From the NCBI RefSeq assembly GCF_000733855.1, contig NZ_JPOJ01000004.1, positions 1 through 64,000 on the forward strand: a DNA stretch of 64,000 bases. The letters run 5' to 3'. This DNA comes from Methylomicrobium agile. GTDB taxonomy: Bacteria; Pseudomonadota; Gammaproteobacteria; Methylococcales; Methylomonadaceae. Below the pieces are notes generated by a model. The model saw nothing but the letters and a program-made list of their open reading frames with translations. It searched no databases and was not told the origin of the DNA. Every line of letters begins with the position of its first letter. The stretch's first letter is position 1. Position numbers and translations under genes: made by a program. This document shows positions 641-64,000 of this stretch, piece by piece.

Positions 641-750
641 GAAAGGCGGGCAGGATATGTGAAGTGCTAGCACCGGCAAAGCCGGAGCAATCACTTCACT
701 TCCTTGATTCGCACCTGCCGGTACTCAACGGGCATCCTGCTCTGCGAGGT
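641..750 (-). other. oriT: RP4-like oriT, second copy on plasmid (inverted)
   Basis: Read on the minus strand this matches the layout of the RP4/IncP oriT: a CTCGCAGAGCAGGAT block, an inverted repeat with CACTTCAC arms (659-666 and 692-699) around a CCGGC/GCCGG stem, then the nic motif TATCCTGC. No traJ follows here. Repeated at 57226-57335. The orientation is opposite to the oriT at 52004-52110. Confidence 0.75.
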
Positions 751-985
751 TCCGCTGCCACTGGAATTAAAAACGACTCAGGCGTGTTTTGCTTTATTGG
801 TCGACGCCAAGAGTGAGCAAGCCGTGTTTTTTTACCAGTACCACAGATTCAGGGCTTAACGGTTTCCCGAAACTTTGTTTTACCCTTGCTATGGCTGAAA
901 AACTCTTATGAAGGATTTCTAAAGTTCAGAGAGAACATCTTCTTTTTGATTGCTCTCCTTCGAAGGCGACAATGTGCTTGTAAAA

Positions 986-8575: not shown

Positions 8576-9804
<1,229 letters not shown>

Positions 9805-12217: not shown

Positions 12218-12264
12218 TTCAGAAAGAGTATCTTGATAAAAGGGAAGAGGCGCCGGCCAAAGGC

Positions 12265-23251: not shown

Positions 23252-23325
23252 GGGGGATATTATACCGCACTCATCCCCTGAAAGCCTTGATATGACTGAT
23301 GTTCAAGAGGATTTTATCGTTAACA

Positions 23326-35451: not shown

Positions 35452-36229
35452 TCTTCTGGCAGTGATCGCCGAACTCGGCCTTGAGCTGCATCCGGATCGT
35501 ATCTCCACCGTCGCGTCGAAGATCGAGACGCTGGGCTCCGTCGAGCAGTTCGCTTTGACCCGTTCGAGCTTCGGCCCCAACGCTGACAAGGAATTGGTTG
35601 GACGTCTGGATCGGGCGTGGCGTAATAGCAAGGATACCTCTCCACGTGACGTGGCATCCGCTCTCCGAGGAGCTTCTGCAGCGGCAGTTCTGAGAGAGAA
35701 CCGTGGGGCCGTGGAATTGGTATGGACAGGCCCCTTGACGGGTCAGGTTCCGGTCAGGCACACCGAGCAGGTGCTCTGTGAAGTCATCGAAGCCGCGAAG
35801 AGACGGCTGTTTATCGTTAGCTTCGTCGCCTACGAAGTCGATTCGATCATCCGGGCACTCCGTGGAGCGATAGGACGCCAGGTTCAGATAGACGTATTGC
35901 TGGAGTCGTCCGACAAGCATGGCGGGCGGGTGACATACGATTCCGTCAAGGCCATGAAAGGCATTCTCCCCTCGATCGACGTTTATGTCTGGCCATCGGA
36001 CAGGAAGTCGCTGCCCGTACAGTTGTCGGGAGCCGTTCATGCCAAATGTGCCGTCGCCGACGGCGAACTGGCTTTCATCACCAGTGCGAATCTAACCTCC
36101 GCCGCGATGGAACGCAACATGGAGCTCGGCGTTCTTGTCAGAAAAGGGAATTTACCTTTCGAACTTCACCGGCATTTAGAATTACTGATTTCAACCAAAA
36201 TCATAGAAAAATATAACGATAATGGATAA
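35444..36229 (+). CDS. drmC: DrmC phospholipase D-like nuclease of DISARM
   Basis: 261 residues with a single PLD/HKD motif HAKCAVADGELAFITSANLT (about 196-215). Related PLD nucleases work as dimers, each giving one HKD motif. DrmC is the third conserved DISARM gene and is known to be dispensable in some systems. Overlaps vsr by 8 bp. Base composition turns AT-rich in its last 20 codons, where the vsr segment starts. Confidence 0.93.
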   Translation: MDDLLAVIAELGLELHPDRISTVASKIETLGSVEQFALTRSSFGPNADKELVGRLDRAWRNSKDTSPRDVASALRGASAAAVLRENRGAVELVWTGPLTGQVPVRHTEQVLCEVIEAAKRRLFIVSFVAYEVDSIIRALRGAIGRQVQIDVLLESSDKHGGRVTYDSVKAMKGILPSIDVYVWPSDRKSLPVQLSGAVHAKCAVADGELAFITSANLTSAAMERNMELGVLVRKGNLPFELHRHLELLISTKIIEKYNDNG

Positions 36230-36680
36230 CGTTGACAAAGCGACACGATCAAAAATCATGTCCAAAGTCAGCCAGAAAAACACTAAGCCGGAAATGAAAC
36301 TTCGGCAATCGTTACATCGCCTTGGTTTAAGATACAGACTCCACGTAAAGAAGTTACCTGGATCACCCGATATGGTTTTCCCACGCTTCAAAGCGGTCTT
36401 GTTTGTTCATGGTTGCTTTTGGCACAGACATGGCTGTAAAGCGACGACTACGCCGAAATCAAGCAAGGAATTTTGGCTGAAAAAATTCAATGACAATGTT
36501 ACCAGGGATAAACGACACATTGAAGAACTTGCCAATCAAGGTTGGCGTATTGCCATCGTTTGGGAATGCGCTCTTAAAGGAAATAATGAACAAATTGACT
36601 CGGTTGCGATAATTTTAAGAGAATGGCTAAAATCCGAAGCAAAATTCATTTGTCTTCCTACCACCGAATTTGTCAATTAA
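36222..36680 (+). CDS. vsr: Vsr very-short-patch mismatch endonuclease
   Basis: 152 residues, full length for Vsr. Family landmarks: VDKATRSKIMSKVSQKNTKPEM, the catalytic region LPGSPDMVFPRFKAVLFVHGCFWHRHGC with zinc-binding His/Cys, and the KFNDNVTRDKRHIEELANQGWRIAIVWECAL tail. It nicks beside the T of T:G mismatches produced by deamination of 5-methylcytosine, so it belongs with the C5 methyltransferase at the operon head. The gene is AT-rich compared with drmA-drmC, suggesting separate acquisition. Last gene of the coupled operon. Confidence 0.93.
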   Translation: MDNVDKATRSKIMSKVSQKNTKPEMKLRQSLHRLGLRYRLHVKKLPGSPDMVFPRFKAVLFVHGCFWHRHGCKATTTPKSSKEFWLKKFNDNVTRDKRHIEELANQGWRIAIVWECALKGNNEQIDSVAIILREWLKSEAKFICLPTTEFVN

Positions 36681-38036: not shown

Positions 38037-38330
38037 ATGATACCTTCTTCGCCCCACCATACCGTCTTAACCGATCCTCAGCGGGCCGTCCGCTTAAAAC
38101 GGCGGCTGCTGCCGTTATTCACCAGCAAGGTCGCGGCGGGTTTTCCGTCGCCGGCCGACGATTATATCGAGCGAAGCTTGGATTTGAACGAGTTGTTGAT
38201 TCAACATCCGGCCGCCACGTTTTTTGCCCTCGCTCAAGGTGTTTCCATGATCGCCGCCGGGATTTACCCGAACGATATTCTGGTGATAGACCGCTCGATT
38301 GAGCCGGTAGCTGTAGTAGCTCGCGTTTGA
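38037..38330 (+). pseudogene. umuD: umuD-like gene cut by the mer transposon
   Basis: The first 90 or so codons match UmuD/LexA-like S24 peptidases: VAAGFPSPADDYIERSLDLNELLIQHPAATFF, then the region of the catalytic serine reads AQGVSMIAAGI (family G-D/x-S-M). Homology stops at about 38311, exactly where the mer transposon end begins. The catalytic lysine part is missing and is not found on the far side, so the gene is dead. No umuC is present. The RBS context at 38025-38036 is weak. Confidence 0.85.
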
Positions 38331-38483
38331 AAATAGACGGGCTCGCAATTATCCCGTTTTTCGGCTCGAATTAGCTGCGACTGAAAATCCGACTCGGCTC
38401 AGAATAAATGCCACTGAGCTTGCATTTATCCGCACGGGCTTGCATTCCATTTTCGCAGGCTCATTCTAATTGCAAATGAAATT
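38312..38483. repeat. Left end of mer transposon, seven subterminal repeats
   Basis: Seven motifs of the type GGCTCGNATT, GGCTCA or GGCTTGCATT occur at spacings of about 20-30 bp (for example GGGCTCGCAATTATCCCG, GGCTCGAATTAGCTGCGACT, GAGCTTGCATTTATCCGC). They match the right end in order and orientation. Likely transposase-binding sites. Confidence 0.8.
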
Positions 38484-38579
38484 CAGGCTTCAGATCAATC
38501 CATCATTGATGCGAAGCGGTAAACTGACAGGCGATCAAACCATTAAACAGCCTGTCCCGTTTAGCCTGAGGTTTCTATC

Positions 38580-38795
38580 CTATCCGGCGCAACAAGAGTT
38601 ATGTTGCTGGATGGGCGGACATTTAACCGAACCGTAAGAGCAAAACACGCAGCAATCCCCCGGCTTTGGCTTTAGCAGTGTACCGCAGGACTTGCATTCA
38701 TAGAAAAACTGGCAGGCATCAGTCGGCATGGTTTCCGTTTCGGCGTGTCCGCAGTGTGGGCAGGTGATCGTCGATTCGAGAATGAGGGTGTTCAT
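38580..38795 (-). CDS. GDCCVxC-domain metal protein
   Basis: 71 residues. Contains the diagnostic GDCCVFCSYGSVKCPPIQ segment plus two more Cys pairs (CPHCGH, CKSCG), nine or more cysteines in all. Proteins of this family sit next to mercury-resistance genes and are presumed to bind metal. Last gene of the merTP operon, overlapping the merP stop. Confidence 0.88.
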   Translation of the reverse strand: MNTLILESTITCPHCGHAETETMPTDACQFFYECKSCGTLLKPKPGDCCVFCSYGSVKCPPIQQHNSCCAG

Positions 38796-39082
38796 TTATT
38801 TTCCTTCTTGATAGAGGATGGATAACCGGCGGCCTTGGTTGCTTCCGTCAGTTTGTCCGCTGTGGTCAGCGTATCGTCGAATTGTACCGTCGCAGTTTTA
38901 CTGGCGTAATCGATCGAAACCTGTTGCACACCGGAAACATGTTCAAGCGCTTTCTTGACCGTAATCGGGCAGACGGCGCAGGTCATGTTTTGTACATCGA
39001 GCGTGACCGCACGAGAGGCAGCCAGTGCCGATCCGCAGGTAACGGCAAACGCCAAAGTAGACATAAAGGTTCTAGTTGTCAT
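38792..39082 (-). CDS. merP: MerP periplasmic mercury-binding protein
   Basis: 96 residues from the ATG at 39082, which has GAGGAAA 7 bp upstream. A Sec signal peptide (MSTLAFAVTCGSALA) is followed by an HMA domain with the mercury-binding motif MTCAVC. It takes Hg(II) in the periplasm and passes it to MerT. Follows merT by 10 bp. No merA reductase follows. Confidence 0.93.
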   Translation of the reverse strand: MTTRTFMSTLAFAVTCGSALAASRAVTLDVQNMTCAVCPITVKKALEHVSGVQQVSIDYASKTATVQFDDTLTTADKLTEATKAAGYPSSIKKENK

Positions 39083-40100: not shown

Positions 40101-40515
40101 AAATCAGGACTCATGGCTATTTACGGTTACGCCCGCGTTTCCAGCGCGGATCAAGATTATTCTCTTCAAGAACAGGCGCTGCGCACGGCGGGCTGCGAAG
40201 TGATTCGGGCCGAGAAAGCGTCGGGTACTGCCCGCACCGGCCGCACCGAGCTGGAATTGCTGCTGGAATTTCTGCGCAAGGGCGACACGTTGGTCGTTAC
40301 CCGCGTGGATCGACTGGCCCGCAGCATCAAGGACCTGCAGGACATCGTGTACGCGCTCAAGGAGCGCGGCGTCACGTTACGGGCCACGGAACAGCCGATC
40401 GATACGCAGAGCGCGGCAGGTAAGGCCTTCCTGGATATGCTGGGGGTATTCGCCGAGTTCGAAACGAATCTGCGCCGCGAACGGCAGCTGGAAGGGATTG
40501 CGGCGGCCAAAGCCC

Positions 40516-41895
40516 CAATGCCGTTAAGTTAAGCAACTTGTGGTATAATGTTTCTATTAACTTACTGAAATTACAGGACAAATAATGAAGCCGACTTAGC
40601 AGTATCCATGCCAGCATTCTCGCCCATCTTTCAAAACTTCTGCATTCGCCCGATTTTATCGCTGCCCATCGTACACACGATAAAGCTTTCATCCGGCAAC
40701 GCGTTCTTACTTTTCCGGTTCTCGTTTCTTTTTTATTGTGCGCCTTCAAGGGCAGCTTGCAAAGCTTGCTGGACGACCTATTCGCCACCCTGGACAGAGG
40801 CTCGCTACGCGCCGTGAGCAAAAGCGCCGTTTCCCAAGCCCGGCAAAAACTCAAAGCCACGGCCTTCGAAGCGCTCAACGATAGCCTGGTCGGCTTGCTC
40901 AATGAGCTTCTGCCCGAACCGCGTTGGCGTGGCTTGCGTTTGATCGCCACCGATTCGACCACCTTACGCCTGCCGCCATGGCTGGAAAATCAGGCCGAAT
41001 TCGGCGTTCAGACCGATAGCGCCGGTCAACCTTATGTCTTGGCGCGCACCTTGGGGCTGTTCGCCTGCGCTTCAAAGCTCATGCTCAAAACCGCGATTGG
41101 CCGTTTCGAGGATGCCGAGCGGGCATTATTGGTTTCCCTGCTGCCGCACCTGGGTCGCGACGATCTTTTGATCATGGACCGCGGCTTTCCGGCGGTGTGG
41201 CTGTTCACTTTGTTGCAACAACGCGGTTTGCCCTTTCTGGCCCGCATGGACGGCAATCAATGGCCTGCCGTTGAACGCTTCCTGCGCTCCGATCTTGCCG
41301 AAACGGTGATCAAACAAACCGTATCCGCTCATGCCCGCCGGCAAGCCCAAGCCGTCGGTATGACGCTGGTCGATAACACGGTCTCCTTGCGGCTGATCAA
41401 AGTGGTCTTGTCCACCGGTCAAATTGAAGTCCTCGCCACCTCGCTCCTCGACGCCCAAGCCTATCCGGCTGAAGCCTTCGCCGAGCTGTATCATGCCCGC
41501 TGGCATATCGAAGAAGCTTTCAAGGTTCTCAAACATCGGCTTTACCTGGAACAATTCACCGGCGAATTGCCCGAATCCATACGCCAGGACATTCATGCCA
41601 AAATCTTCACCGTCAATCTGGCCGAAGCCCTGGCGCGGGAAGCTTACGACTCCTTGCCGGAAGATAAAGCCGCGCGCTATTTCCCCAACGTCAGCTATAT
41701 CCTCCAGTCCCTGAAAACGCGTCTCTTCGCTTGGCTGATACAACGCGTGCCGCACGATCAGGTGCTAGAATTGATCGCCCTCTATGCCCGAACACTGGAG
41801 CGGAAACGTCCCGATCGGAAAGCGCCCAGACCCAAAAACCGTATCACTCCAAAGCCCAGAAGGCAGTACCGGTGAAGCTTAACTTAACGGCATTG
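40516..41895 (+). mobile_element. IS4-family insertion sequence, copy 2
   Basis: 1380 bp, same length and ends as 12265-13644 and identical wherever compared. Target duplication GCCAAAGCCC at 40506-40515 and 41896-41905. It sits inside the resolvase gene of the mer transposon. Confidence 0.95.
40736..41875 (+). CDS. IS4-family transposase, copy 2
   Basis: Same protein as copy 1 at 12485-13624 (379 codons from TTG, frame open further upstream to 40589). Identical copies at two sites mean recent movement within this replicon or its host. Confidence 0.9.
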   Translation: MCAFKGSLQSLLDDLFATLDRGSLRAVSKSAVSQARQKLKATAFEALNDSLVGLLNELLPEPRWRGLRLIATDSTTLRLPPWLENQAEFGVQTDSAGQPYVLARTLGLFACASKLMLKTAIGRFEDAERALLVSLLPHLGRDDLLIMDRGFPAVWLFTLLQQRGLPFLARMDGNQWPAVERFLRSDLAETVIKQTVSAHARRQAQAVGMTLVDNTVSLRLIKVVLSTGQIEVLATSLLDAQAYPAEAFAELYHARWHIEEAFKVLKHRLYLEQFTGELPESIRQDIHAKIFTVNLAEALAREAYDSLPEDKAARYFPNVSYILQSLKTRLFAWLIQRVPHDQVLELIALYARTLERKRPDRKAPRPKNRITPKPRRQYR

Positions 41896-42064
41896 GCCAA
41901 AGCCCGGGGCGTTTACCAGGGCCGGAAGCCTTCCGTTGACGGCCAGATGATCAAGGCGCTACGCGATCAACAACAGCTCGGAGCCACCGAAATTGCCCGG
42001 CAGCTCGGCATCAGTCGGGCCTCGGTTTACCGGGCACTCGCCAAGCCTCACGCCGAGACCTGAC

Positions 42065-51120: not shown

Positions 51121-51609
51121 TCAGCCTAACGGCTCTCCAATCCATACTGTAATCCTGGACCATTGATCCAGTATTAATGCAGGTTTTGCGGTTTCAAGAA
51201 GGCGCCATAGGCGCACCTGCCCATCAGGTTCCGGTAGCCAATCGTCGAGGATGATCGAATGCTCGAACGACTGACGGGCAACAATGGCCGTCAGAACCAT
51301 ATCGGCGATTGCCCGGTAATGATCGGCGGCGTAGATCGGCCCGGGCGGCAGCTCCAAGCGATAGGGTTCCAAGCGTGCCCGCGCATCGAAAATACCTGCA
51401 TCGCCCAATAAGGGCTTGGTATTCAGCAAGTCGTCGCCAACGAGCTGGTACGGCCCTGGCGGACGACCGGCAGTCCCTTCGAAGGTCTCGGAAAAATGCC
51501 AGTCGCCCGTCCCCTCGGGCGCCGGGATGTTCAGTGCAGTTAAGCCGGTCAGATAGTGGTCTTTTGTGGTTTGAGGGAATGAGGATATTTTAGGAGTTAA
51601 AAAAATCAC
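51121..51609 (-). CDS. Hypothetical protein downstream of traJ
   Basis: 162 residues, no family recognised. Contains PAPEGTGDWHFSETFEG and a central region PGPIYAADHYRAIADMVLTAIV, with no membrane segment. The start overlaps the traJ stop by 4 bp, so it is co-expressed with traJ in the place where RP4 has traI. It does not look like a relaxase: no His-triad motif is visible. A type of plasmid-borne conserved protein is plausible. Confidence 0.6.
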   Translation of the reverse strand: MIFLTPKISSFPQTTKDHYLTGLTALNIPAPEGTGDWHFSETFEGTAGRPPGPYQLVGDDLLNTKPLLGDAGIFDARARLEPYRLELPPGPIYAADHYRAIADMVLTAIVARQSFEHSIILDDWLPEPDGQVRLWRLLETAKPALILDQWSRITVWIGEPLG

Positions 51610-51983
51610 GACTCAGCCCTCGGCCGCACCACGCTCTTGATGGCATCCCGCATCACTGCCTGGGTCCCTTCAATTTTCCAGAGCAGCGCTCGAATAGTCG
51701 ACTCCCCAAACTGCGCGGTTTTGACATCGTTGGTAAGCCACAATTTGAGCAAGCCGCCCAGCCGGCCTAAATCGCCGTTGATTCGCATCAGGTCGTCAAT
51801 TTTCTCGCCATCGACGACGCCCTTGGGTTCGTAACCGAACCCAAGGGTCAACAGGTACGACGACAGTGGCAGTCCAACGCGAGCAGCGTTGGACTCGATC
51901 GGTTGCCGCTCTTCGGGCAGGCAATAGACCTTGATCGGTGGACTGTCTTTTCTTGTGGTTGGTTTTTCTCTTCCATAGGTCAA
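51606..51983 (-). CDS. traJ: TraJ-like oriT-binding protein
   Basis: About 125 residues. The stretch PPIKVYCLPEERQPIESNA, then GLPLSSYLL and RINGDLGRLGGLLKLWLTND, then RALLWKIEGTQ, closely follows IncP TraJ, a ribbon-helix-helix-like protein that binds oriT and recruits the TraI relaxase. It lies next to the RP4-like oriT in the RP4 orientation. The start is unclear: a TTG at 51983 is in frame, while a better ATG (51973-51975) is one A short of being in frame, so a homopolymer error is likely. Confidence 0.88.
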   Translation of the reverse strand: MTYGREKPTTRKDSPPIKVYCLPEERQPIESNAARVGLPLSSYLLTLGFGYEPKGVVDGEKIDDLMRINGDLGRLGGLLKLWLTNDVKTAQFGESTIRALLWKIEGTQAVMRDAIKSVVRPRAES

Positions 51984-52003
51984 TCGCTTTTTCCGGCGGT
52001 AGC

Positions 52004-52110
52004 CGGTGCCTCGCAGAGCAGGATTCCCGTTGAGCACCCAGTGCGAATAAGGGAAGTGAAGTAGGAGCTCCGGTTTACCGGTGGGCCTACTTCACATATC
52101 CTGCCCGCCT
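52004..52110 (+). other. oriT: RP4-like oriT next to traJ
   Basis: Upstream of traJ: CTCGCAGAGCAGGATTCCCG, GTGCGAATAAGGGA, the inverted repeat GTGAAGTAGG (52056-52065) with CCTACTTCAC (52086-52095), then the nic motif TATCCTG/C with the predicted nick between 52103 and 52104. Spacing and sequence follow the RP4 oriT. About 180 bp beyond nic also occurs inverted at about 480-660. Confidence 0.88.
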
Positions 52111-52389
52111 TTCAGCATGGTTTTCTGTGGGGATACAGGTCTGTAATCCGATGATAAACCTATGCCAGTCCAATGGAAAATAAAAAAAACCGCGGAATCC
52201 AGGAATTTAACGCGCTTCCTGACCAGTTTCCGCACGAAATACACGCGAAATACAGCGGTTTACTTATGCTTTCCACATACCCAAAGTCATCATATTTCAA
52301 ACGACATCAAGGGGTCAGAAATAGCCAGTCATTAGGATCAGTACTTTAGTACCGCGCCCATCAGGCCTCAGCTAAATCATCTTGACGCT
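52111..52389. repeat. oriT-flanking duplication and gene-free stretch
   Basis: Up to about 52270 this is a diverged inverted copy of the flank of the other oriT (about 480-640 and 57065-57225): shared blocks include TTTCAGCATGGTTTTCTGTG, AATCCAGGAATTTAACGCG and CGAAATACACGCGAAATACAG. Nothing recognisable from there to 52389. Confidence 0.7.
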
Positions 52390-52719
52390 TTGCCTGATGA
52401 GGTCCGCCAAATGCTGGTGATCGGCGGCGTGATCTGGGGCAACAATACAGCGGACGATTTCTTTTTGCAAAGCCACGGCGTGGCGACTCCGAACGCCTTC
52501 TGGAAGGTGATCGTGCGCGGATCCGGCCAGGACGAGCGCGCGATCGCCTGGATCGTGCCGAATTCGGCGCAGGCGACGAAAAAGAACCTGGACCGCTATC
52601 TGGTCACCGTCGACGAGATCGAGCGGCTGACCGGCGAGAAGATACCGGTCGCGGATTACGCCAAGCATGACAAGCCCTCGGCTTCCTGGATGATTCCAGC
52701 CGGATGCGATAAAGGCTAA
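52390..52719 (+). pseudogene. C-terminal fragment of a DNA/RNA non-specific endonuclease
   Basis: 109 codons. VATPNAFWKVIVRG...AIAWIVPNSAQATKKNLDRYLVTVDEIERLTGEKIPV matches the C-terminal third of NUC1/EndA-type nucleases. The catalytic DRGH region is missing and upstream frames are closed, so this is a remnant. It ends 10 bp before the KfrA operator. Confidence 0.8.
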
Positions 52720-52728
52720 AAAATTACG

Positions 52729-52762
52729 GTAATTATGATAATTACATAATTATCATAATTAC
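52729..52762. promoter_or_regulatory. KfrA operator palindrome
   Basis: GTAATTATGATAATTA and its exact complement are separated by two bases, giving a 34-bp symmetric site. A further half-site GTGTAATT follows at 52773-52780 and a possible -10 TATACT at 52788-52793. It sits about 70 bp before kfrA, as expected for an autoregulated KfrA promoter. Confidence 0.75.
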
Positions 52763-52830
52763 ACTTTAATCAGTGTAATTTACCTGCTATACTTAACCTA
52801 TCCCCCCCACCACATGCTAGGAGTAACGCC

Positions 52831-53772
52831 ATGGCCGCACCTAAACTGACCGAAGATGAAGTCCACGCCGCATGCGTCGATATCGTGGCGCAAGGCGAGC
52901 GCCCCACCGCCTTGACTTTATTGGAAAAGCTAGGCCGCGGCAGCCTCACCACCATCACTAAATACCTGAATACCTGGCAGGCCACGGATGAGGCCCAGGC
53001 GTTGAAAAGCGAAGCGCTACCGGCAGTCGTCAAGGTTCCGGCGGAATTGTCGAGAGAAGGCGAGGATTTGCTGAAAAAGATGTGGAACACGGCCAAGGGG
53101 ATTGCCGACGAGGAACTGGAAATCCAGCGGGAAGCGTTGAAGCAGGCCGAGCAGGCCAACCAGGCTAAAGTCGAGGAGGCCTTCAAGTTTTCCGAAGTCC
53201 AGAACATGAAGATCGAGCGCCTGGAAGATGACTTTAATACCATCAGGAAGCAATTTGATGCCGAATATAAAGCCCATAAGGAAACTCGTGGTCATCTGGC
53301 AGAGGCCGAAAAAATCAATGTTGGGATTCTGAAGGACAACGACCGACTGCAGCACGAGATCGCCGAGCTGAAAAAGCAGCAGGCCGCGCTGGAGGAGGCG
53401 AACAAGACCGCTGTGCAGGAGAAACAGGCACTGCAAAAACAGCACGAGGAAGCGCTTAAAAAGAAAGACGCGGAAATAAAGACGCTCGACATGCAGGTGC
53501 ATAAGCTCCAGATGTCGCTGGACTCGGCCGTCAGCTCCAACGAGCAATTGAAAACCGATATCAAGGCCAAGGCCTCCGAGTTATCTAAACGGACCGTCGA
53601 AGTCGAGACGCTGAGCGTCCGTTATGAGTCTTCTACCGCTGAATTAAAGACGGCCAAAGCCGAGCTGAAAGCCGCGAACAAAGCGGTTTCCGATGCCGAA
53701 AAAATGGTCGCCAAGCTGGAAGGGCAGCTGGAGGTCTACGTGAGCCTTGAAGAGAAAGGGAAGCCGGAATAA
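52831..53772 (+). CDS. kfrA: KfrA-like coiled-coil DNA-binding protein
   Basis: 313 residues. The N-terminal KfrA_N domain (LTEDEVHAACVDIVAQGERPTALTLLEKLGRGSLTTITKYLNTWQ) binds DNA. From about residue 95 on there is one long charged coiled coil (repeated EELK/EALKKK heptads) to the end. KfrA proteins of IncP and related plasmids repress their own gene and help plasmid stability, perhaps as a filament. The palindromic operator lies just upstream. Confidence 0.92.
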   Translation: MAAPKLTEDEVHAACVDIVAQGERPTALTLLEKLGRGSLTTITKYLNTWQATDEAQALKSEALPAVVKVPAELSREGEDLLKKMWNTAKGIADEELEIQREALKQAEQANQAKVEEAFKFSEVQNMKIERLEDDFNTIRKQFDAEYKAHKETRGHLAEAEKINVGILKDNDRLQHEIAELKKQQAALEEANKTAVQEKQALQKQHEEALKKKDAEIKTLDMQVHKLQMSLDSAVSSNEQLKTDIKAKASELSKRTVEVETLSVRYESSTAELKTAKAELKAANKAVSDAEKMVAKLEGQLEVYVSLEEKGKPE

Positions 53773-53804
53773 AGTAAACGCGGCGTATTTAAACAGGGGG
53801 TAAG

Positions 53805-54361
53805 GTGCCAAGACTCTTTTTGTTTCCTTGGTTGGTTGCCATATTGATCTTTGTCGTCGGGTGCAGCATTACTGTCCAGCAGAAGCCGAATATCAACTTC
53901 CCTAAGCCGAGCGGTGCGCACGTGCTGATCCTTGGCGAATTCACGTCAGATCAGCCTGGATGGAAACCGCTAGAACCTTACTTTCGTAAAGAAATAGTGG
54001 AGTATCTCGTCGACCATAACGCTTTCGAAAGCGTTCTTGACGGCTCCGAGCATAAAAGCGATGCCCTGATGTTGACCGAAACTGTTAAGGGAAGTTGCCG
54101 AGGGGAGCGCCGCCGCGCGCGTTAATCGGCTTCGGAGCAGGAAAGGCAATGCTTAAAGGACAGTTCGAACTTCGGGACGCCTCTGGGAATACCCTGCTTC
54201 GGTTCGAGAGCCACGGCGCCGAATATGGAGGCGGGGGATTACTTTTCGGTGTTGCGGGGATGGCCGGCGCTATCGGGGGCAAGGAGCGCTTGATAAAGGG
54301 TTTTGCCGTTAATGTTGCAAATACCGTAATGCGCCGGTCAAAAGGGAAAAATCTCTATTGA
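53805..54361 (+). pseudogene. DUF4410-like lipoprotein, frameshifted
   Basis: GTG start after CAGGGGG. The first frame (53805-54125) has a signal peptide with lipobox (LIFVVGC|S) and the beginning of a DUF4410-type domain. The second frame (to 54361) continues the family pattern with LIGFGAGKAMLKGQFELRD and a glycine-rich stretch. The shift falls between about 54080 and 54125 in a GC-rich run (GGGGAGCGCCGCCGCGCGCG), so a sequencing error is as likely as true decay. An outer-membrane-type lipoprotein of unknown role. Confidence 0.7.
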
Positions 54362-54405
54362 GAGAGGAGAGGGGGCTAAAGAGAGTTCTTTCACTCGTTT
54401 CTCGA

Positions 54406-54437
54406 AAAACAACAACAAGCTCTTTTGTTGTTGTTTT
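54406..54437. terminator. Hairpin terminator between lipoprotein gene and origin
   Basis: A 13-bp perfect stem (AAAACAACAACAA with its complement) and a 6-base loop GCTCTT, ending in TTTT. The stem is AU-rich but long. Likely insulates the origin from upstream transcription. Confidence 0.5.
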
Positions 54438-54505
54438 AATAAACAACATATTTAAATATATTTAGCTTTCTGGAACCATTGCACGGCGCGGCCTGCAGCG
54501 ATTTT

Positions 54506-54702
54506 ATGTCACTGTTTAGGGGATGAAATGTCACTGTTTAGGGGATAAATCCGGTTTTTAATGTCACTGTTTAGGGGATCAATCGATTATTGCTGGTTAT
54601 AGTTTTTAAGCTATTGATTAATAATGCATTTGTTTTTGTTTATAATCGGTTTATTCCGTTAATGTCACTGTTTAGGGGATGAAATGTCACTGTTTAGGGG
54701 AT
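54506..54702 (+). other. oriV: Iteron origin of replication (oriV)
   Basis: Five identical 19-bp iterons ATGTCACTGTTTAGGGGAT at 54506, 54528, 54561, 54662 and 54684. Two pairs are spaced 22 bp, two helical turns. An AT-rich stretch (54582-54655) between iterons 3 and 4 could be the unwinding region. Directly upstream of the Rep gene. Confidence 0.93.
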
Positions 54703-54751
54703 GACTATCAAGCCAAAGGTGAGGGTCTTACGATGGGTAACGGCATCACCT

Positions 54752-54798
54752 ATTGTCACTTAAAAAACTCTTGTGTTGGGGTGACAATTTAATATAAT
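54752..54798 (+). promoter_or_regulatory. rep promoter and autorepression operator
   Basis: -35 TTGTGT (54771-54776), 16-bp spacer, -10 TATAAT (54793-54798). An inverted repeat ATTGTCAC (54752-54759) and GTGACAAT (54781-54788) straddles the -35 and shares TGTCAC with the iterons. Rep_3 dimers usually repress at such inverted half-iterons. Confidence 0.75.
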
Positions 54799-54804
54799 GC
54801 CTTC

Positions 54805-56106
54805 ATGGCAAAGAAAGAGCTTCAGGTAGCTTTAACCCCGCAAAAAGAGCAAGTTCGCAAGCATGTTGCCGCTATTCATACGAGCGGCGAACTGTCGCTA
54901 TTGGAGCGCAAGATGGCGAATGTGCTGCTTTTGAATGCCTATGATTCCTTGGTGACAAGACGGACACATATGCTACCGGTAAAGCATTTATGCGCGATGC
55001 TCGGCTGGGATGAGAGCAACAACATCGAGCGACTGCAGGACGTACTGCGCAAGCTGGCATCGACCACCATCGAATTCAACATGATGGAGGACGGAAAGGA
55101 TGTCTGGCGGGTCATGTCGATGCTGTCCTATGGCGAGATCAGGGAAGGCACCTGCACCTACCGTTACGACGAATACCTGGCCGAGCGCCTTTACGATCCG
55201 GAGATATACGCGACGATCAATATCGGCGTGCAGCGACGCTTCGAGGGAGGGTATGCTTTGACGCTGTATGAGAACTGTCTCAGGTATAAGGCGATCGGCT
55301 CCACCGGGTGGTGGGAATTAAGCAGGTTTCGCCGGATCATGGGCGCCGAGGCGGGGCTTTATGACGACTTTCGGCGGCTGAACGAGCGCGTTATCCGTCC
55401 GTCCATCAAAGAAATAAACCGTGTATCGGATATTCAATTAGAACCCGAGTTTCAAAGGCAAGGCCGCAAAGTCTCAGCTGTCCGCTTTTTGGTGACCGAG
55501 AACCCCCAGCAAACCCTGTTGAAGCCGATGATCAAGGACGACCATGCGGCGGTTCGTGAATCCCAAATATTCAAACGCCTGGTGGACCATGGCATAGGGG
55601 AACGCCTTGCCATTCTGTGGATACTGCAGGACGAGGAGCGGGCCAGGCAGGTGGTCGAGTACGTGGAAGCAAAGGCGAAGAAAAAGCAGGTCAAGGGCAC
55701 GACCGCCGGCTATATCCGGACGCTCTACGAGAGCGACGCCGTGGTCGGCAAGACCCCTTTCGAAGCCAAGAAGGAGCAAGAGATTCAGGCCAAAATCGAG
55801 GCAGAGCAGCGCGAGGCCCAGGAAAAACGGCGCGCCGAGATCGAAGCCGAGTATGTGCGCGAGCGCATCAATAAAGCCGTGACCGGCTTATCGCTGGATG
55901 ACAAGCGCGCCTGGATCCAGCGCTATATCGACGAGCTGGGAGCCGAAAAGGCGAAATCCTACCAGGCCGAAACCGTGGAGTTTCGCGATAGACTGGAACG
56001 CCTGCATTTTTCAGCCTGGCTGCGGAAGCAGCTTGCATCGAAGATCAAGCCGGCGGAGTTTAAGGCGTGGCTGAAGGAAAAAGGGTATGCTGCGATGAAG
56101 GATTAG
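54805..56106 (+). CDS. repB: Rep_3-family replication initiator
   Basis: 433 residues with the two winged-helix domains of Rep_3/RepB/pi initiators: SLLERKMANVLLLNAYDSL, EFNMMEDGKDVWRVMSMLSYGEI, YALTLYENCLRYK and WELSRFRRIMGAE. The C-terminal 150 or so residues are charged and helical, longer than in the smallest family members. It binds the iterons upstream to open the origin as monomer and represses its own promoter as dimer (family knowledge). Confidence 0.95.
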   Translation: MAKKELQVALTPQKEQVRKHVAAIHTSGELSLLERKMANVLLLNAYDSLVTRRTHMLPVKHLCAMLGWDESNNIERLQDVLRKLASTTIEFNMMEDGKDVWRVMSMLSYGEIREGTCTYRYDEYLAERLYDPEIYATINIGVQRRFEGGYALTLYENCLRYKAIGSTGWWELSRFRRIMGAEAGLYDDFRRLNERVIRPSIKEINRVSDIQLEPEFQRQGRKVSAVRFLVTENPQQTLLKPMIKDDHAAVRESQIFKRLVDHGIGERLAILWILQDEERARQVVEYVEAKAKKKQVKGTTAGYIRTLYESDAVVGKTPFEAKKEQEIQAKIEAEQREAQEKRRAEIEAEYVRERINKAVTGLSLDDKRAWIQRYIDELGAEKAKSYQAETVEFRDRLERLHFSAWLRKQLASKIKPAEFKAWLKEKGYAAMKD

Positions 56107-56318
56107 CCGGATTGTTTCACGCGGAACTCTTGATATATTACTTTACTTAGCTTTAACATGACTGCACAATTAATTGTATTAATTAGCTATTTATGTAATT
56201 TTCCGCGTCTGGCGGCGCGACCAGGAAGCGGCCTTACTGGGCTCAAATTGCCGGTGCTGAAGCCTTTAGCCAATCCCGTAAAAATGGATGATGCGAGAAA
56301 ACTGGATAGCTGTACTGA

Positions 56319-56465
56319 ATGAAATACCACCTCATAACTGCTGTGATTCTGCTGGTTGCCTTGGTATTTTATGGGCTTGGCTATTCGTCTTTAGGCGGAA
56401 TAGCGATTGTGATCGGCGGCGTCTTTGAGCTTTGGTTTTGGGTGAGGCTTTTTCGTGGTACTTAA
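56319..56465 (+). CDS. Small membrane protein, 48 aa
   Basis: ATG ORF with two hydrophobic segments (LITAVILLVALVFYGLGY and GGIAIVIGGVFELWFWV) and a short basic end. No strong RBS is visible. Sits 213 bp after rep, in the otherwise gene-free stretch 56107-56584. Function unknown. Confidence 0.45.
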   Translation: MKYHLITAVILLVALVFYGLGYSSLGGIAIVIGGVFELWFWVRLFRGT

Positions 56466-56523
56466 AGGATTTATCGGTTATGGAGGATCGCTAAATTCAA
56501 ATTGCTGATAATAGTCTGGCTAG

Positions 56524-56679
56524 ATGCTGATGGAAGGAAATGAAACGATAAATCAGGATACACCGCTGATGGTTGCCGAAAACAGGGTAAAGGATTTGGA
56601 ACGCAAAGCTATTGCAGCTTATAGAGCGGCCTATCCCGACGGTCCGCTGGCAGGATTTGCACAAAGATACGCGTCTTGA
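56524..56679 (+). CDS. Possible small ORF at the overlap junction, frame uncertain
   Basis: 51 codons (MLMEGNETINQ...). The sequence after the stop continues in another frame as KDTRLEWVAYLEKMTPGRQ, which looks more protein-like. The two passes differ by one G here (copy 1 near 58). The real gene may therefore run to about 56731 with an indel inside. Unrecognised. Confidence 0.3.
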   Translation: MLMEGNETINQDTPLMVAENRVKDLERKAIAAYRAAYPDGPLAGFAQRYAS

Positions 56680-57225
56680 ATGGGTTGCTTATCTTGAAAA
56701 GATGACGCCTGGCAGACAGATCAATAAGTGATTGTCTTATTGCCACAAATTGCTGATTTCCCCCCAAACATATTTATTCCATGATTTCATCATTCGCCGC
56801 AGCCTCGGAAACCGCGCATCGGCACCGATGGCCAGCGGTTAAAAGAATTCTCTTCGAGGATCGCTTCGGTACTGTTGATCCGGTGAAAAAGTAATACTTT
56901 AATAGTAATACTTTGCCGTGGGAAAAGTAAATAGGGATGAGATTGCTGGGTTGTGATGGAGAGGGAGGCCCTGGTGGTCGACCTGGTAGCCGAAATCCGG
57001 AAGGGCAAGTATGCGATCCTGTCCGGCCCGGTCGGCATCGGGAAAGCGGCGGAGCTGAAAGTGGCGCTGGAAAAAGAAATCGCTGTATTTCGCGTGTATT
57101 TCGTGCGGAATACTGGTCAGGAAACGCGTTAAATTCCTGGATTTCGCTGTTTTTTCTATTGTCTGCGTGGGTCTCATAGGTATGCCATCGGATTGCAAAG
57201 CTGCACCCCCACAGAAAACCATGCT

Positions 57226-57335
57226 GAAAGGCGGGCAGGATATGTGAAGTGCTAGCACCGGCAAAGCCGGAGCAATCACTTCACTTCCTTGATTCGCACC
57301 TGCCGGTACTCAACGGGCATCCTGCTCTGCGAGGT
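57226..57335 (-). other. oriT: RP4-like oriT (second-pass copy of 641-750)
   Basis: Same site as 641-750, read again in the terminal overlap. The nic motif TATCCTGC is on the minus strand. On the circle this oriT and the one at 52 kb face each other about 5 kb apart, separated by the replication region. Confidence 0.75.
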
Positions 57336-57572
57336 TCCGCTGCCACTGGAATTAAAAACGACTCAGGCGTGTTTTGCTTTATTGGTCGACGCCAAGAGTG
57401 AGCAAGCCGTGTTTTTTTTACCAGTACCACAGATTCAGGGCTTAACGGTTTCCCGAAACTTTGTTTTACCCCTTGCTATGGCTGAAAAACTCTTATGAAG
57501 GATTTCTAAAGTTCAGAGAGAACATCTTCTTTTTGATTGCTCTCCTTCGAAGGCGACAATGTGCTTGTAAAA

Positions 57573-57822: not shown

Positions 57823-58629
57823 ATGGCAAAAAAAACATCTGTCATCGCCGTTGCCAATCATAAGGGTGGCTGCGGGAAAACAACCACGGTCGTCAATCTT
57901 TCGGCCGAGTTGGCCCGAATGGGGCTCTCTGTCCTGATAATCGATCTCGATCCGCAAGCCAACGCGAGCCTTCACATCGGCAAAAAGCACCCGAGCGAAG
58001 TCCCTATCACCTGCGCAGAGCTGTTGCTGTCAGAAATCGAGAAGCTGCCGCAATCCATCCACGACGATACCAATATCGACGGCGTTTCACTGATATACGG
58101 GTCACTGGCTCTCGGCAAAACCGAAGACGAATTGAAGGACGATGTGCCGCGTCCTTCGGAAGAGCTCCGCGACAAGATCAAGCCCCTGCATGGCATTTAT
58201 GACGTCATCCTGATCGATTGTCCGCCAAGCCTCAAGCTGCTGACCAGTAATGCTTTAGCTGCGGCCACGCACTTGATCATCCCGATCGAATCGGGTTCGC
58301 AGTACGGTATGTATGGAGTCACCGATTTGATGAAACTCGTCGAGAAAATCAAACGCATTAATCCCGAACTCGAATTGATCGGCGCTCTTCTGGTTCGACA
58401 CGACGAGAGGCAGACGGTCTGCAAACTGATCGAGGCCTCTGCCAAAGATCAGATCGGCAAATTGATCGATGTTCGTATACCGACCAGCACTAAGGTCAAT
58501 CAGTCGGCGATCGCTCAAATGAGCCTGCACGCCTTGGATCGGACGGCCAAAATTTCACGTGAATTTCGGAGCTTGGCAGAAATTATCGCCAAGCAATTGA
58601 ATCTAGCTGCAGGAGCTGATCAAGCATGA
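57823..58629 (+). CDS. parA: ParA-family plasmid partition ATPase
   Basis: 268-residue ParA/Soj-type Walker ATPase that moves plasmid copies apart at cell division together with ParB and parS. The deviant Walker A motif KGGCGKTT is at residues 14-21. The Walker A' region IDLDPQAN is at about 41-48 and the Walker B-like stretch ILIDCPPSL at about 128-136. There is no N-terminal HTH extension, so it belongs to the short ParA class and regulation probably falls to ParB or another protein. It overlaps parB by 4 bp (ATGA), so the two are translated together. The promoter lies just upstream. Confidence 0.95.
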   Translation: MAKKTSVIAVANHKGGCGKTTTVVNLSAELARMGLSVLIIDLDPQANASLHIGKKHPSEVPITCAELLLSEIEKLPQSIHDDTNIDGVSLIYGSLALGKTEDELKDDVPRPSEELRDKIKPLHGIYDVILIDCPPSLKLLTSNALAAATHLIIPIESGSQYGMYGVTDLMKLVEKIKRINPELELIGALLVRHDERQTVCKLIEASAKDQIGKLIDVRIPTSTKVNQSAIAQMSLHALDRTAKISREFRSLAEIIAKQLNLAAGADQA

Positions 58630-59534
58630 GCAAAGACTTGAAAAAAATGTTGGAGCAGAAGCTGCAACAAAACACCCAGCGGCATGCTTTGGCGGCTCAA
58701 GACGCGAATTTCGAAGAAGGCAAGGAGCACATCCTCATTCCTGTCGATAAAATCGATCCAAATCCCTATCAGCCGCGTCGCATCTTTCCCCAGCAGGAGC
58801 TCGACCAACTCGCGCAATCGATTTCCGAGCTTGGCTTGTTGGAGCCTATCCTGGTACGCAAGATTGATGACCGCTACCAAATCGCCGCTGGCGAGCGGCG
58901 TTGGCGTGCTCATAAGCAGCTGCATAAACACACTATCGAAGCTTTGGTAACCAGCATATCTGACAGCGACATGGCCGTCTTCGCGCTGGCGGAGAATGTC
59001 GACCGGGAGGATCTGAGCGATTACGAAATCGGCCTGGCGTTGAAGCAGATCGAGAATGCCTTCCCGACCAAAAAGAAACTGGCCGAGTCGTTGGGTATGA
59101 ACCGTGAGGATATGTACCGATATTATGCCTACGACGACCTGCCGCAATTTATCATTTCCGACCTAAACACAAATCCCAGATTGCTTTCAAGATCGGCTGC
59201 GAGCGACATCAAGCGACTTTTGAAGCAATGCGGCCATTTGCCATCATTCAATGCCTACTTAGCCGAGGCCTGGGCGTTGTTGCTGGAGAATGAGCTGGAT
59301 CAAACTAAAATTGCTGCTTTCGCCACACGTAAGCTGAAAGGCCATGAGGAAAAGGATAGCCATATTCAAAATTCGCGTAATCTGATCCGGGATGGCAAAA
59401 AGGTGGGCAACATTGCCTGGACCGAAAAGCACATCACTGTTAAATTGAACGCGAAGACGCTGAACTCCGAACAGGAACAGAAACTGAAGGATTTTCTGGA
59501 AAAATTGATCGAGGGAGAACTGGCCGAAGTGTAG
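58626..59534 (+). CDS. parB: ParB-family partition protein
   Basis: 302-residue ParB/Spo0J-type DNA-binding CTPase family protein. The ParB N-terminal domain runs from about residue 38 (IPVDKIDPNPYQPR) with the catalytic-box motif AAGERRWRAH at about 87-96 and ALAENVDREDLSDYE at about 118-132. An HTH follows (KKLAESLGMNREDMYRYY, about 150-167) for parS recognition. The C-terminus is a basic/acidic helical stretch likely used for dimerisation. It overlaps parA by 4 bp and ends inside one of the candidate parS palindromes. Confidence 0.95.
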   Translation: MSKDLKKMLEQKLQQNTQRHALAAQDANFEEGKEHILIPVDKIDPNPYQPRRIFPQQELDQLAQSISELGLLEPILVRKIDDRYQIAAGERRWRAHKQLHKHTIEALVTSISDSDMAVFALAENVDREDLSDYEIGLALKQIENAFPTKKKLAESLGMNREDMYRYYAYDDLPQFIISDLNTNPRLLSRSAASDIKRLLKQCGHLPSFNAYLAEAWALLLENELDQTKIAAFATRKLKGHEEKDSHIQNSRNLIRDGKKVGNIAWTEKHITVKLNAKTLNSEQEQKLKDFLEKLIEGELAEV

Positions 59535-60392: not shown

Positions 60393-63300
60393 TTAAGAAT
60401 TAAGCGGTTGGTCGATAGATAGGCTCACTCCCAGATCATCGAACGATATTTTCAGTTTAGCACCAGAATGGGAAAGCCGGATTTTCCAATCCTCGCAGCC
60501 CCATTCAATAGGAGATATTACTTGCCATGTCTTTTCACCTCCAGGTTGACCTTCACGGATATTAAAGAATGCCGTCTGCATTGTTTGCTCATTTTTGAAG
60601 TTGCAGCGACCAATCTGTCGAGACAATTCTATATTAAAATCGCCGACTTTTACGGCAACACGGCCAGCTAGTTCGATTTGCTTCACTGCGGCAACACCGA
60701 ACATTGTGTCTGCCTCCAGAACCTCTGAAGGAAGATGAAGCGGCGTTTCAGGTTTGGATTCTGGTATTTGAACTAATGAGTTGGTTGGTTTTTCAATTTC
60801 TGCGAGCTCTGGGTATTTAGGGAGGTCAGTAACCCGCTCAATTCCGAGGCGCTTCATTGCTTCGGAAAGTTCACGCTGGATCTCGGAAGCCCGACGGCTT
60901 TGCCCCGCCTGCTCGCGCTCATATTCAAGCTGTCTATTCTTGCAGATGATCCACCTGAGGCGGGCAAACTGTTTCTGTTCCTCAGAGAAGAGGGATTCCT
61001 TGGTGACAGCTTCATAGAATGGAAGAGCGTCGGTGAACTTGCCGCCGCGCTCGATGGCGGCGCCTGCTTCCTCTGCCGAGACAAAAGGACGCCATCGCCC
61101 TTCTTTGACGCGCAAAAAACGCCGCAAGAATTCGCTAAGTTGTCGCTGAAGGTGTCCAGGCAATTCAGGAAACGCATCTGATCGGGCTAAGGCAGACACA
61201 AGTGTGCATTGAAGTTCGTCTGCATGGCTCTCGACCAGTTCGCGGACCGCATCTTCGGACCAGTTGGAATCAGGAGAGAAATCCAGAGTTGACGCGAACT
61301 TGGCCAATGGTTCCCACTCTCCGTTTCCAACCATCGCGATCACTGTGCCATGCAGTGCTCGAATCGCTGTTTGGGCTTCGCCTTCCGATATCGCCTTGAG
61401 TGCAATTCGTCTTATTACAGTGGCATTCTGCGATTTCCACGCAGCATCAAGCGCATCGTTTAAGCGATTGCACTGGAGATACGCCAACGAGATGTTACTC
61501 CATTGCGCAGAATCAAGGTCTGTATTGGTGCGAGCTTCAAACTCCTGGATGATTTCGACAAACGCCCCGACCTTCATCAAAGCTGCAAGCTTTCCCGGAT
61601 ATGGCTCGATAGCCGCTTTCGCTTTTAAATATTCATCCGATTTAGTTTCTCCGGCTTTTTCCCATCGTTGCACTGCTTTTTGCAGGCTTCCCGCACGGAA
61701 GTGGACTTCCGCCATTTTCCGGTCAAGCTGAGCAATGCCGCACGCTTCAATCTTTTCGAGCACGTGCTCCAGTGTTCCGGCCATCGTAAGGGAAGCGTCA
61801 TTCCGGACATTGTCGATGATGGTATTGATCCCGTCGCGCCATGCGTTTTCGGAAGACACATACGCCGCAAAGGAAGTTTCCGAAAGGCGGGCTGCCAACT
61901 CTTCAAGAAGCTCGATTCCCCGGCTTGACGACACACTCGTGTCTAGGATCGCCAGCGCATATTTAAATTCTGTCTCCCTAGCCACGCTCGCATTCAGTTT
62001 TCCTAATTCGGTGAGTCGCTGCCAGCCCGTCTTTCCCACTTTCCAGAAGCACTGCACAGCTTCGGGAACTACGAACCCAGCATCTAAATAGGCCTCAGCT
62101 GCGGCGAGGTGATCGCCCTCCAATTCCAGCGCACGTGCACGACACTCAGTGGCTTTGGTGGAATCACCGGCGCTCCGATAGGCAAGGGCCGCTTGCCGTA
62201 GAAGAAACGCATCCTTCCTTGCCCTACCGTCTTCCTCAAAAGTCTTAGCGTTGTCTATCGGATCACCCGCACTCTCGCGGGTTAGATCCTCCACTTTGCC
62301 CATCGTCATGCCCTCGACAGCGGGGGCATTTTCGTCTTCTGGATCAGCATTCCACACAGTGCGGCCACGATTTGCCGCATCAATGACCCGCCTGGTGACC
62401 TCTTCTCGGTTCGCAAACTCCCAGAGAGCATTTATCCCGGACTCGTCGTCTACAATGATCAAACGCTGTTTGGGACGACTGACCGCCACGTAGAGGCGAT
62501 TGATGAAATATTGAAACGGCAGCGAGTGATCCTTTGTTGCCTCATCACCGCCATGGGTGGAATCCATTAATTCCATTAAATTCCTTGGCGCCACTCCTCC
62601 GAAGCCGTAAACAACCACGACCTGATACTCTCGGCCTTTTGCTCGGGCTGCGCTCAATACGTTTTGTGGAATTTCATCCTCCATGCGAATGTGTTGTCTG
62701 AGGATAGGATCGTCCCGAACAAACTGAGCCTCTTCTCCTTCGTTGCAGGGAACAATGACGACGAACGAGTCTGCCTCTTTGAACCTCTTCCAGAAGGAGG
62801 AATCTCCCGAGTTGAACCAAACCACGGGAAATACGCCCTGCGGCAAAGCCCACGGGGTTTGTGGGCGTAATTCCGGCATTTTAAAAAGCGCCGACCGCAG
62901 CGCCTGAACCCCGTTGCTGAAGCGGACAATGGGAGGAGTGGAGCGGTAATTGTAGTGAAGTTCCCGATAGTTGAGTTCCGTCCTACCAGAGAGTCCACTT
63001 GGATCGAGCGCCCGAATGAACTTCTCGACGAAGGAAGCCTTGATAGCGTCCCAGCGAAAACCGGTTGGATTCAAAGTTTGAAATTGGTCACCTGCAAAGG
63101 CGAAAGGCACTCGGCTCAGATCGTGGGGTGGCACTGCTCGGTTCGAGAACAAGTTGAGACGCAAAAGCAGTTCTAGTTCAATCCGGGTAAAATCTTGCGC
63201 TTCGTCACAAAGAACCGCAGGACTTGCCGGTTTTGCCAAATCGTTGTCGAGGATAAACCGAGCCAGATCTTGGTCGTCCCACAGCCCTTTGGCTTCGGCT

Positions 63301-64000
63301 ATTTTTGAGTACCGCCCTTCCCAGACCCGCTCGAAAACTGTTTGGAATGTCTGCCGAGTCACCGTGATCTGGTTCTCCGGTAATTGCTCATAGTCGTCGG
63401 GATCCATCACGGTCTCTGAAAGCATACCTTTGATGTAGCTGCGGATGATGTGCCAAGAAATATCTGGCCCAAATTCCCGCGCAGCAGTACGATCCATTCC
63501 AAACCATTCCGTCCATAGTTTACGGAACTGTGAATAGTCCACCCGGCGGGATAGTGCGAATTGTTCCTGCCTAGTTCGCGCATCAACCATTGAGAGCAGG
63601 TGGGGTTGAAATTCCCGGAATGCCTCGTCGAGAATCTCTCGATTATCATCGACCAAACTAGCCGATCCACTTCCTCGAAAGGTGGCCTCGTTACGCAGGA
63701 TACGCTCGATAAAACTCCGCGCGACGCGCAGTAGTTCTCCGTTTGCTGTCAAGTACACGGGAGGTGCAATCAATTGGGCCGCCGGTGTGCTCAAGTAATA
63801 GAAAAGCAGATCCGCAAAAAGATATTGCAAGATGGTGGACTTGCCGCTTCCAGCACGACCGTTTACGAACAGAGGAAACGCCCCCTCTGTCCGACGCACA
63901 CTAAGCAAGACATCGGACTCCTCAGGTGAAAGTGCCATGTTGGCAACGGGTTCCTTCTCAATCTCCACCCACGTTTCCTCATCCGCGAGCATGTAAGCCG
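60393..64000 (-). CDS. SF1 helicase, second copy, cut by window end
   Basis: Open frame for about the last 1200 codons of the helicase described at 3801-8167. It shows that the break seen there at 4262-4265 is not real. The N-terminal 255 or so codons lie beyond the window end and are found only at 7400-8167. Confidence 0.85.
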   Translation of the reverse strand, partial: AYMLADEETWVEIEKEPVANMALSPEESDVLLSVRRTEGAFPLFVNGRAGSGKSTILQYLFADLLFYYLSTPAAQLIAPPVYLTANGELLRVARSFIERILRNEATFRGSGSASLVDDNREILDEAFREFQPHLLSMVDARTRQEQFALSRRVDYSQFRKLWTEWFGMDRTAAREFGPDISWHIIRSYIKGMLSETVMDPDDYEQLPENQITVTRQTFQTVFERVWEGRYSKIAEAKGLWDDQDLARFILDNDLAKPASPAVLCDEAQDFTRIELELLLRLNLFSNRAVPPHDLSRVPFAFAGDQFQTLNPTGFRWDAIKASFVEKFIRALDPSGLSGRTELNYRELHYNYRSTPPIVRFSNGVQALRSALFKMPELRPQTPWALPQGVFPVVWFNSGDSSFWKRFKEADSFVVIVPCNEGEEAQFVRDDPILRQHIRMEDEIPQNVLSAARAKGREYQVVVVYGFGGVAPRNLMELMDSTHGGDEATKDHSLPFQYFINRLYVAVSRPKQRLIIVDDESGINALWEFANREEVTRRVIDAANRGRTVWNADPEDENAPAVEGMTMGKVEDLTRESAGDPIDNAKTFEEDGRARKDAFLLRQAALAYRSAGDSTKATECRARALELEGDHLAAAEAYLDAGFVVPEAVQCFWKVGKTGWQRLTELGKLNASVARETEFKYALAILDTSVSSSRGIELLEELAARLSETSFAAYVSSENAWRDGINTIIDNVRNDASLTMAGTLEHVLEKIEACGIAQLDRKMAEVHFRAGSLQKAVQRWEKAGETKSDEYLKAKAAIEPYPGKLAALMKVGAFVEIIQEFEARTNTDLDSAQWSNISLAYLQCNRLNDALDAAWKSQNATVIRRIALKAISEGEAQTAIRALHGTVIAMVGNGEWEPLAKFASTLDFSPDSNWSEDAVRELVESHADELQCTLVSALARSDAFPELPGHLQRQLSEFLRRFLRVKEGRWRPFVSAEEAGAAIERGGKFTDALPFYEAVTKESLFSEEQKQFARLRWIICKNRQLEYEREQAGQSRRASEIQRELSEAMKRLGIERVTDLPKYPELAEIEKPTNSLVQIPESKPETPLHLPSEVLEADTMFGVAAVKQIELAGRVAVKVGDFNIELSRQIGRCNFKNEQTMQTAFFNIREGQPGGEKTWQVISPIEWGCEDWKIRLSHSGAKLKISFDDLGVSLSIDQPLNS

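Follow-up and report, generated by a model that had tools for sequence, protein, structure and literature searches.

The plasmid of Methylomicrobium agile considered here raises a question that is easily put. Why should a replicon that encodes no relaxase carry two origins of transfer (oriTs) of the RP4 type, pointing in opposite directions?

The window, by which is meant the whole stretch of DNA analysed, covers bases 1-64,000 of a contig 66,990 bp long (G000:C4). When the contig is compared with itself, bases 1-10399 match bases 56585-66990 (10,406 bases) with no mismatches and single-base indels only. Terminal redundancy of this kind is, of course, what one usually sees when a circular contig from long reads has been left untrimmed. 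The 10.4-kb self-overlap therefore makes the replicon a circular plasmid of about 56.6 kb. The redundancy and its single-base indels also point to an unpolished circular long-read assembly, and frameshifts elsewhere in the M. agile genome are therefore suspect.

A preliminary description of the locus had listed a further site at 641-750. Because contig positions 1-10399 repeat 56585-66990, this is the site at 57226-57335 met again through the overlap. The duplicate (648..751, plus strand) is an artefact of assembly, and a count of three oriTs is rejected.

Two sites and no relaxase

The two remaining oriTs are real, and they lie in opposite orientation as first described. Copy 1 (52007-52106, minus strand by Rfam) matches RF01760 (traJ-II) with 99.9 bits (E 1.5e-18), and copy 2 (57233-57336, plus strand by Rfam) with 79.4 bits (E 1.5e-13), where the gathering score is 40 bits. 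Their nic sites, predicted from sequence position, fall at 52103|52104 and 57235|57236, with the nicked strand plus in copy 1 and minus in copy 2. Beside the inverted repeat, each site has a nic core of the form YATCCTG|Y, with TATCCTG|C in both and the fuller reading CATATCCTG|CCC. The dyad, counted by eye, pairs at 15 of 18 positions in both copies, as it does in RP4.

Both sites had been thought to keep the nic and the inverted repeat of RP4. The nic is indeed kept in both, the inverted repeat in copy 1 only. The right arm of copy 1 is the RP4/RK2 arm GGTGGGCCTACTTCAC, which arm comparison places in class A; that of copy 2 is GGTGCTAGCACTTCAC, class B. Likewise, the RP4 TraJ-binding right arm GGGCCTACTTCAC is present in copy 1 and absent from copy 2, which there reads GTGCTAGCACTTCAC. 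At 79.4 bits, copy 2 nevertheless outscores class B oriTs that stand beside relaxase genes (66-78.1 bits), and therefore shows no sign of decay.

The plasmid thus has oriTs on a replicon where, as the preliminary description had it, no gene for a relaxase or type IV secretion system is found among the 40 open reading frames scanned. Missing are traI, traK together with its partner sequence, and all of the trb genes. The absence of traK and its partner means, in turn, that the TraK of a helper may not act here.

The TraI homologue that was to be sought in the host did not appear. Profile searches of the whole host genome with PF03432, TraI, PF03135 and PF02534, which cover MOBP relaxases and the P/T-type machinery, gave no match. 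The genome does hold a relaxase of another family. At about 2.15-2.17 Mb on the chromosome (G000:C1, loci L087/L089), a MobH relaxase scores 414 bits and an SXT-type TraD 687 bits, alongside a weak match to TraG; these are parts of an SXT/R391-like element. One would not expect a MOBH relaxase to work at an RP4-type oriT. The genome of the strain yielded no class B TraJ or helper either.

Helpers may be sought, however, in the wider family, the Methylomonadaceae. Three plasmids there (in G028, G011 and G037) have TraI beside a class A oriT and VirB4 on the same contig, and G039:C64 combines TraI and VirB4 with an oriT of class B in a single contig. The family thus offers candidate helpers of both classes.

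TraJ and its arm

Only copy 1 adjoins a traJ gene, as had been noticed before. The gene (51606..51974, minus strand) encodes a NikA-like ribbon-helix-helix relaxosome accessory protein, recognized by Pfam (NikA-like, 60.2 bits) and by NCBIfam (TraJ, 162.7 bits against a cut-off of 134). After it, at the place of traI in conjugative relatives, comes orf162 (51121..51609, minus strand), a protein without an assigned function. Its homologue on the conjugative plasmid G028:C2 is 78% identical in amino acids, and more distant homologues occur on 13 PLSDB plasmids.

G028:C2 (63,965 bp, from another genus of the family) is informative in another way. It shares with the M. agile plasmid a segment of 538 bp (51586..52123, corresponding to 38290-38828 of G028:C2) that is 92.8% identical and, with the whole of traJ in it, reaches from the traJ/traI junction through the oriT to a point 20 nt beyond nic. 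As it has TraI, TraG, TraK, TraL and VirB4, this relative encodes key parts of a conjugation system. The pairwise dN/dS of traJ against G028 is about 0.15 (0.038/0.262), which means that, across the pair taken together, constraint has acted on the protein. When amino acid changes are polarised, 7 of 8 fall on the branch of the M. agile plasmid and one on the other (p 0.35, not significant), an excess that could reflect relaxed constraint.

In RP4, as reported in a later paper (PMC6206304, citing Ziegelin 1989 and Pansegrau 1990), TraJ binds the right arm of the inverted repeat, and the relaxosome owes its specificity to this binding. Pairs of TraJ and arm were therefore gathered from related genomes and plasmids, 48 in all, a few of the genomes being the same strains as PLSDB records. 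Across these pairs, the N-terminal strand of TraJ tracks the nic-side arm. By homology, this would be the strand that contacts DNA in a ribbon-helix-helix protein. A search of solved structures with the TraJ profile gave NikA (2BA3) as its sole match, a weak one (E 0.08), and a fold predicted from the single sequence was poor at the N-terminus, where the predicted strand was modelled without confidence.

The strand IKVYCL goes with the arm GGCCTA in RP4, 20Z, G028 and the M. agile plasmid, and defines class A. Elsewhere, IVVRVT goes with CTAGCA, LRVPVF/L with AGCTAA (IncP-beta-like plasmids and others), IYVWVT with CATGTA, IRVWVT with GGTACA, and IKVCCT with GGCCAA. The rule was first seen on an initial set, and loci added later also fit. 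There is one clear exception, L035, where a strand of the LRVPVL class stands with a different arm.

Pairwise comparison puts numbers on this association. Where two TraJ proteins agree at positions 2 and 4 of the strand, the arm core is shared in 190 of 216 comparisons; where they differ there, it is shared in 12 of 912. Dereplication at 60%, which leaves 14 TraJ proteins, gives 12/17 and 3/74, respectively. None of 20,000 shuffles reached the observed association, the shuffles being of a kind that ignores phylogeny. Phylogeny enters through individual pairs. The TraJs of L068 and L051 are 90% identical, and differ in both strand and arm; those of L033 and L059 are only 44% identical, and share both. 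Descent alone therefore does not explain the association. No description of a TraJ-arm code was found in the literature searched. An equivalent code has been published for SmpO of staphylococcal plasmids (PMC8136818).

By the predicted code, the plasmid combines two specificity subtypes, A and B. Copy 1 is predicted to be the cognate site of the TraJ that the plasmid itself encodes, and of RP4-like helpers. For copy 2, a TraJ of class B should be required, and the arm of copy 2 is accompanied elsewhere by a different TraJ, on conjugative plasmids of the same family. This divides the earlier proposal that the plasmid could ride on IncP-type relaxases. It is supported for copy 1, which has the RP4/RK2 arm and whose traJ-oriT segment matches that of a conjugative plasmid in the family at 92.8% identity. 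It does not extend to copy 2, which lacks the RP4-specific arm and for which helpers with the other class of TraJ are predicted. That a natural traJ stands in cis makes sense, because traJ added in cis lifts RK2-driven transfer of oriT plasmids to Streptomyces 10-100 fold (PMC12696120).

A change of partner at nic

To the left of nic, copy 1 agrees with G028 at 98 of 100 nt, and this similarity fades within about 20 nt to the right. There, copy 1 agrees with copy 2, at 29 of the first 30 nt and in 143 of 168 aligned columns; the best match that any other locus offers to those first 30 nt is 22/30. The right flank of copy 1 (52104..52265, aligned with 57235-57074) is shared with copy 2 only, its first 29 nt being identical and the whole about 85% so. 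An exact 22-nt pattern for this flank had no match in 84,980 genomes, and at the DNA level PLSDB contained no further carrier, while 237 genomes of the family gave only short fragments.

The switch lies inside a core of 25 nt, ACTTCACATATCCTG|CCCGCCTTTC, that is common to copy 1, copy 2 and G028 and that contains nic. Judged by these alignments, copy 1 is a hybrid, with a class A traJ-oriT side joined at nic to a side that is like copy 2. Relaxase joining of nic to nic, or homologous recombination in the core, would either of them give this pattern.

The right flanks of both copies face inward, toward broken backbone genes. Next to copy 2 is an N-terminal fragment of an ATPase (56962..57075, plus strand; by homology, residues 10-47 of 307), which breaks off at 57075, precisely at the boundary of the copy 2 homology (57074). 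On the side of copy 1 is a C-terminal fragment of a DNA/RNA non-specific endonuclease (52390..52719, plus strand; by homology, residues 186-291 of 291 in YRD-M1 numbering), a remnant whose start lies 133 bp beyond the point where the copy 1 homology stops. Both genes are intact on a plasmid of Methylobacter YRD-M1, where the kfrA-rep order is identical, and their missing parts are absent from the M. agile plasmid. On the plus strand there follow a gene for a KfrA-like DNA-binding protein (52831..53772), five iterons ATGTCACTGTTTAGGGGAT that lie upstream of rep as two groups and form a probable replication origin (54506..54704), a Rep_3 family replication initiator (54805..56106), and the partition genes parA and parB (57823-58629 and 58626-59534, together 57823..59534).

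Hitchhiking, its rivals and its relatives

What, then, are the two sites for? The reading that we favor, with a probability of roughly 0.7, is that the plasmid is a relaxase-less, oriT-only hitchhiker, with two RP4-type oriTs of different helper specificity and a class A TraJ of its own. Here, a conjugative plasmid with an RP4-like TraI and a type IV secretion system would share the cell. TraJ, whether the plasmid's or the helper's, would bind the right arm of copy 1, and TraI would nick at TATCCTG|C to send a strand that leads rightward through kfrA-rep. If the helper's TraJ were of class B, the nick would fall in copy 2 instead, and on the opposite strand. Together, the two classes would widen the range of helpers. 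The hybrid at copy 1 would have arisen when a class A traJ-oriT recombined with a resident oriT inside the nic core.

The sites might, of course, be for nothing. A conjugative IncP-like ancestor may have lost its tra genes, leaving oriTs and traJ as functionless relics. This is what one might suppose from the absence of traI, traK and every trb gene, from the broken backbone genes that adjoin both oriTs, and from the concentration of TraJ changes on the plasmid's own branch. We nevertheless regard decay as unlikely. Both nic cores and both dyads are intact, copy 1 has a core nearly identical to the oriT of a plasmid that keeps its tra genes, and the dN/dS of traJ is low. Further, two oriT classes and a hybrid ancestry suggest repeated acquisition rather than a single deletion, and the replication backbone is one held in common with a plasmid typed as non-mobilizable, not with an IncP plasmid.

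It is very improbable that the conserved hairpins are only cis-regulatory RNAs (traJ-II leaders). RF01760 was originally filed as a regulatory RNA, and Rfam lists it as such upstream of traJ (PMC2864571). The family coincides, however, with the experimentally defined oriT of RP4 (PMC6206304), neither traJ nor any other gene stands in leader position at copy 2, and the nic core, which is outside the stem, is also conserved. This reading is rejected.

Scarcely credible, and likewise rejected, is the earlier suggestion that a relaxase or recombinase acting on the facing oriTs inverts or excises the 5.1-kb replication segment between them, for which the inverse orientation and a 44-nt identical block spanning both nic sites might speak: with the nicked sequences on opposite strands, a round of transfer begun at one site cannot terminate at the other, documented relaxase events are deletions between same-strand oriTs (PMC4652767), excision would remove rep, which the plasmid cannot lose, and the arrangement is identical at the two ends of the redundant contig. 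Thus, relaxase inversion or excision is not expected, and RecA-mediated inversion through the 44-nt block would be rare.

Those documented events bear on the orientation in another way. As relaxases join same-strand oriTs and delete the DNA between them, opposite strands are the arrangement that survives. Two-oriT plasmids of S. aureus include no same-strand pairs, and 58 of 67 staphylococcal multi-oriT plasmids combine different oriT subfamilies (PMC4652767). The M. agile pair, nicked on plus and minus, fits the staphylococcal pattern. Inverse pairs of RP4-type oriTs were also seen on G589:C207 (1844-1922, plus, and 3344-3429, minus, 1.5 kb apart) and on G141:C13 (1895981, minus, and 1912866, plus, 17 kb apart).

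The hitchhiker reading has precedents. Copy 1 is like RP4/RK2 (IncP-1 alpha) in its nic core, its right arm, the position and orientation of traJ, and a NikA-like TraJ with IKVYCL; unlike RP4/RK2, the M. agile plasmid lacks the transfer genes named above, has a second arm that differs, and has an unrelated flank to the right of nic. The oriT-mimic plasmids of the S. aureus pWBG749 family are also relaxase-less, with several oriT subtypes on opposite strands, specificity from a ribbon-helix-helix accessory protein and an inverted repeat, and recombination at the oriT core (PMC4652767, PMC8136818). They are, however, Gram-positive, with an unrelated oriT, and their smpO was added in cis experimentally, whereas the traJ of M. 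agile is natural.

Among plasmids described by Moran and Hall, in the accounts that two later papers give of them (PMC8136818, PMC11389934), pBuzz has two inversely oriented oriTs and pCERC7 has an oriT and a NikA accessory gene without a relaxase; both are mobilised in trans, but they are small plasmids with oriTs of the R64 or B/O type, not of the RP4 class. R6K (Avila 1996), as presented in PMC5587640, has two functional oriTs on one plasmid, but is self-transmissible with its own relaxase. The Pasteurellaceae plasmids pB1001 and pTetHS016 have an RF01760-type oriT without a relaxase; unlike the M. agile plasmid, they have a single oriT whose arm is not RP4-like, are not mobilised by RP4, and have no known mob genes (PMC6206304).

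The oriT-only hitchhiker with multiple subtypes is thus a known kind, to which assignment of this plasmid is well supported by sequence; it appears to be new in the RP4 class within the literature searched. It would extend to that class, and to methanotrophs, a strategy described mainly for staphylococcal plasmids. The TraJ-arm code, in turn, predicts which helper mobilises which RP4-type oriT. A broader hypothesis, which we advance tentatively and at slightly under even odds, is that strand residues 2, 4 and 6 (KYL, VRT, RPF/L, YWT, RWT, KCT), matched with six variable arm bases, set at least six compatibility classes of RP4-type oriT. The plasmid would combine two of these, its class A site being a nic-junction hybrid made by a relaxase, and the exchange of half-oriTs at nic would be how the helper range of hitchhikers evolves.

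A 25.9-kb GIM-1 plasmid of Enterobacter cloacae (L092, NC_021087.1) was also noted. It has an RP4-type oriT of class C, a 42-residue stretch of traJ, and trbJ/trbL; no relaxase is annotated, and MOB-suite types it as non-mobilizable. Relaxase-based typing misses oriT hitchhikers of this kind.

The cargo gives mobility a further interest, as it shows how a plasmid that carries defence systems (DISARM, Argonaute) could move without transfer genes. A complete-looking DISARM locus (18504-36680) has drmMII, drmD, an Mrr-like gene, drmMI, drmA, drmB, a PLD-domain protein at the place of drmC, and Vsr, with drmD split by an IS66 element (21617-23251). A class II prokaryotic Argonaute lies at 13907-17241 with an adjoining helical restriction-nuclease partner (PADLOC Aga_Helical-REase). 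A protein of 1301 amino acids (4262-8167), weakly similar to the Schlafen group and UvrD-like helicases, may be a defence protein not yet described; the frame of its copy at 60393-63992 is shorter, probably through a single-base indel in the contig overlap. Two direct copies of a DDE transposase element (12250-13652 and 40500-41902), 99.7% identical, flank the defence region, and homologous recombination between them could delete it.
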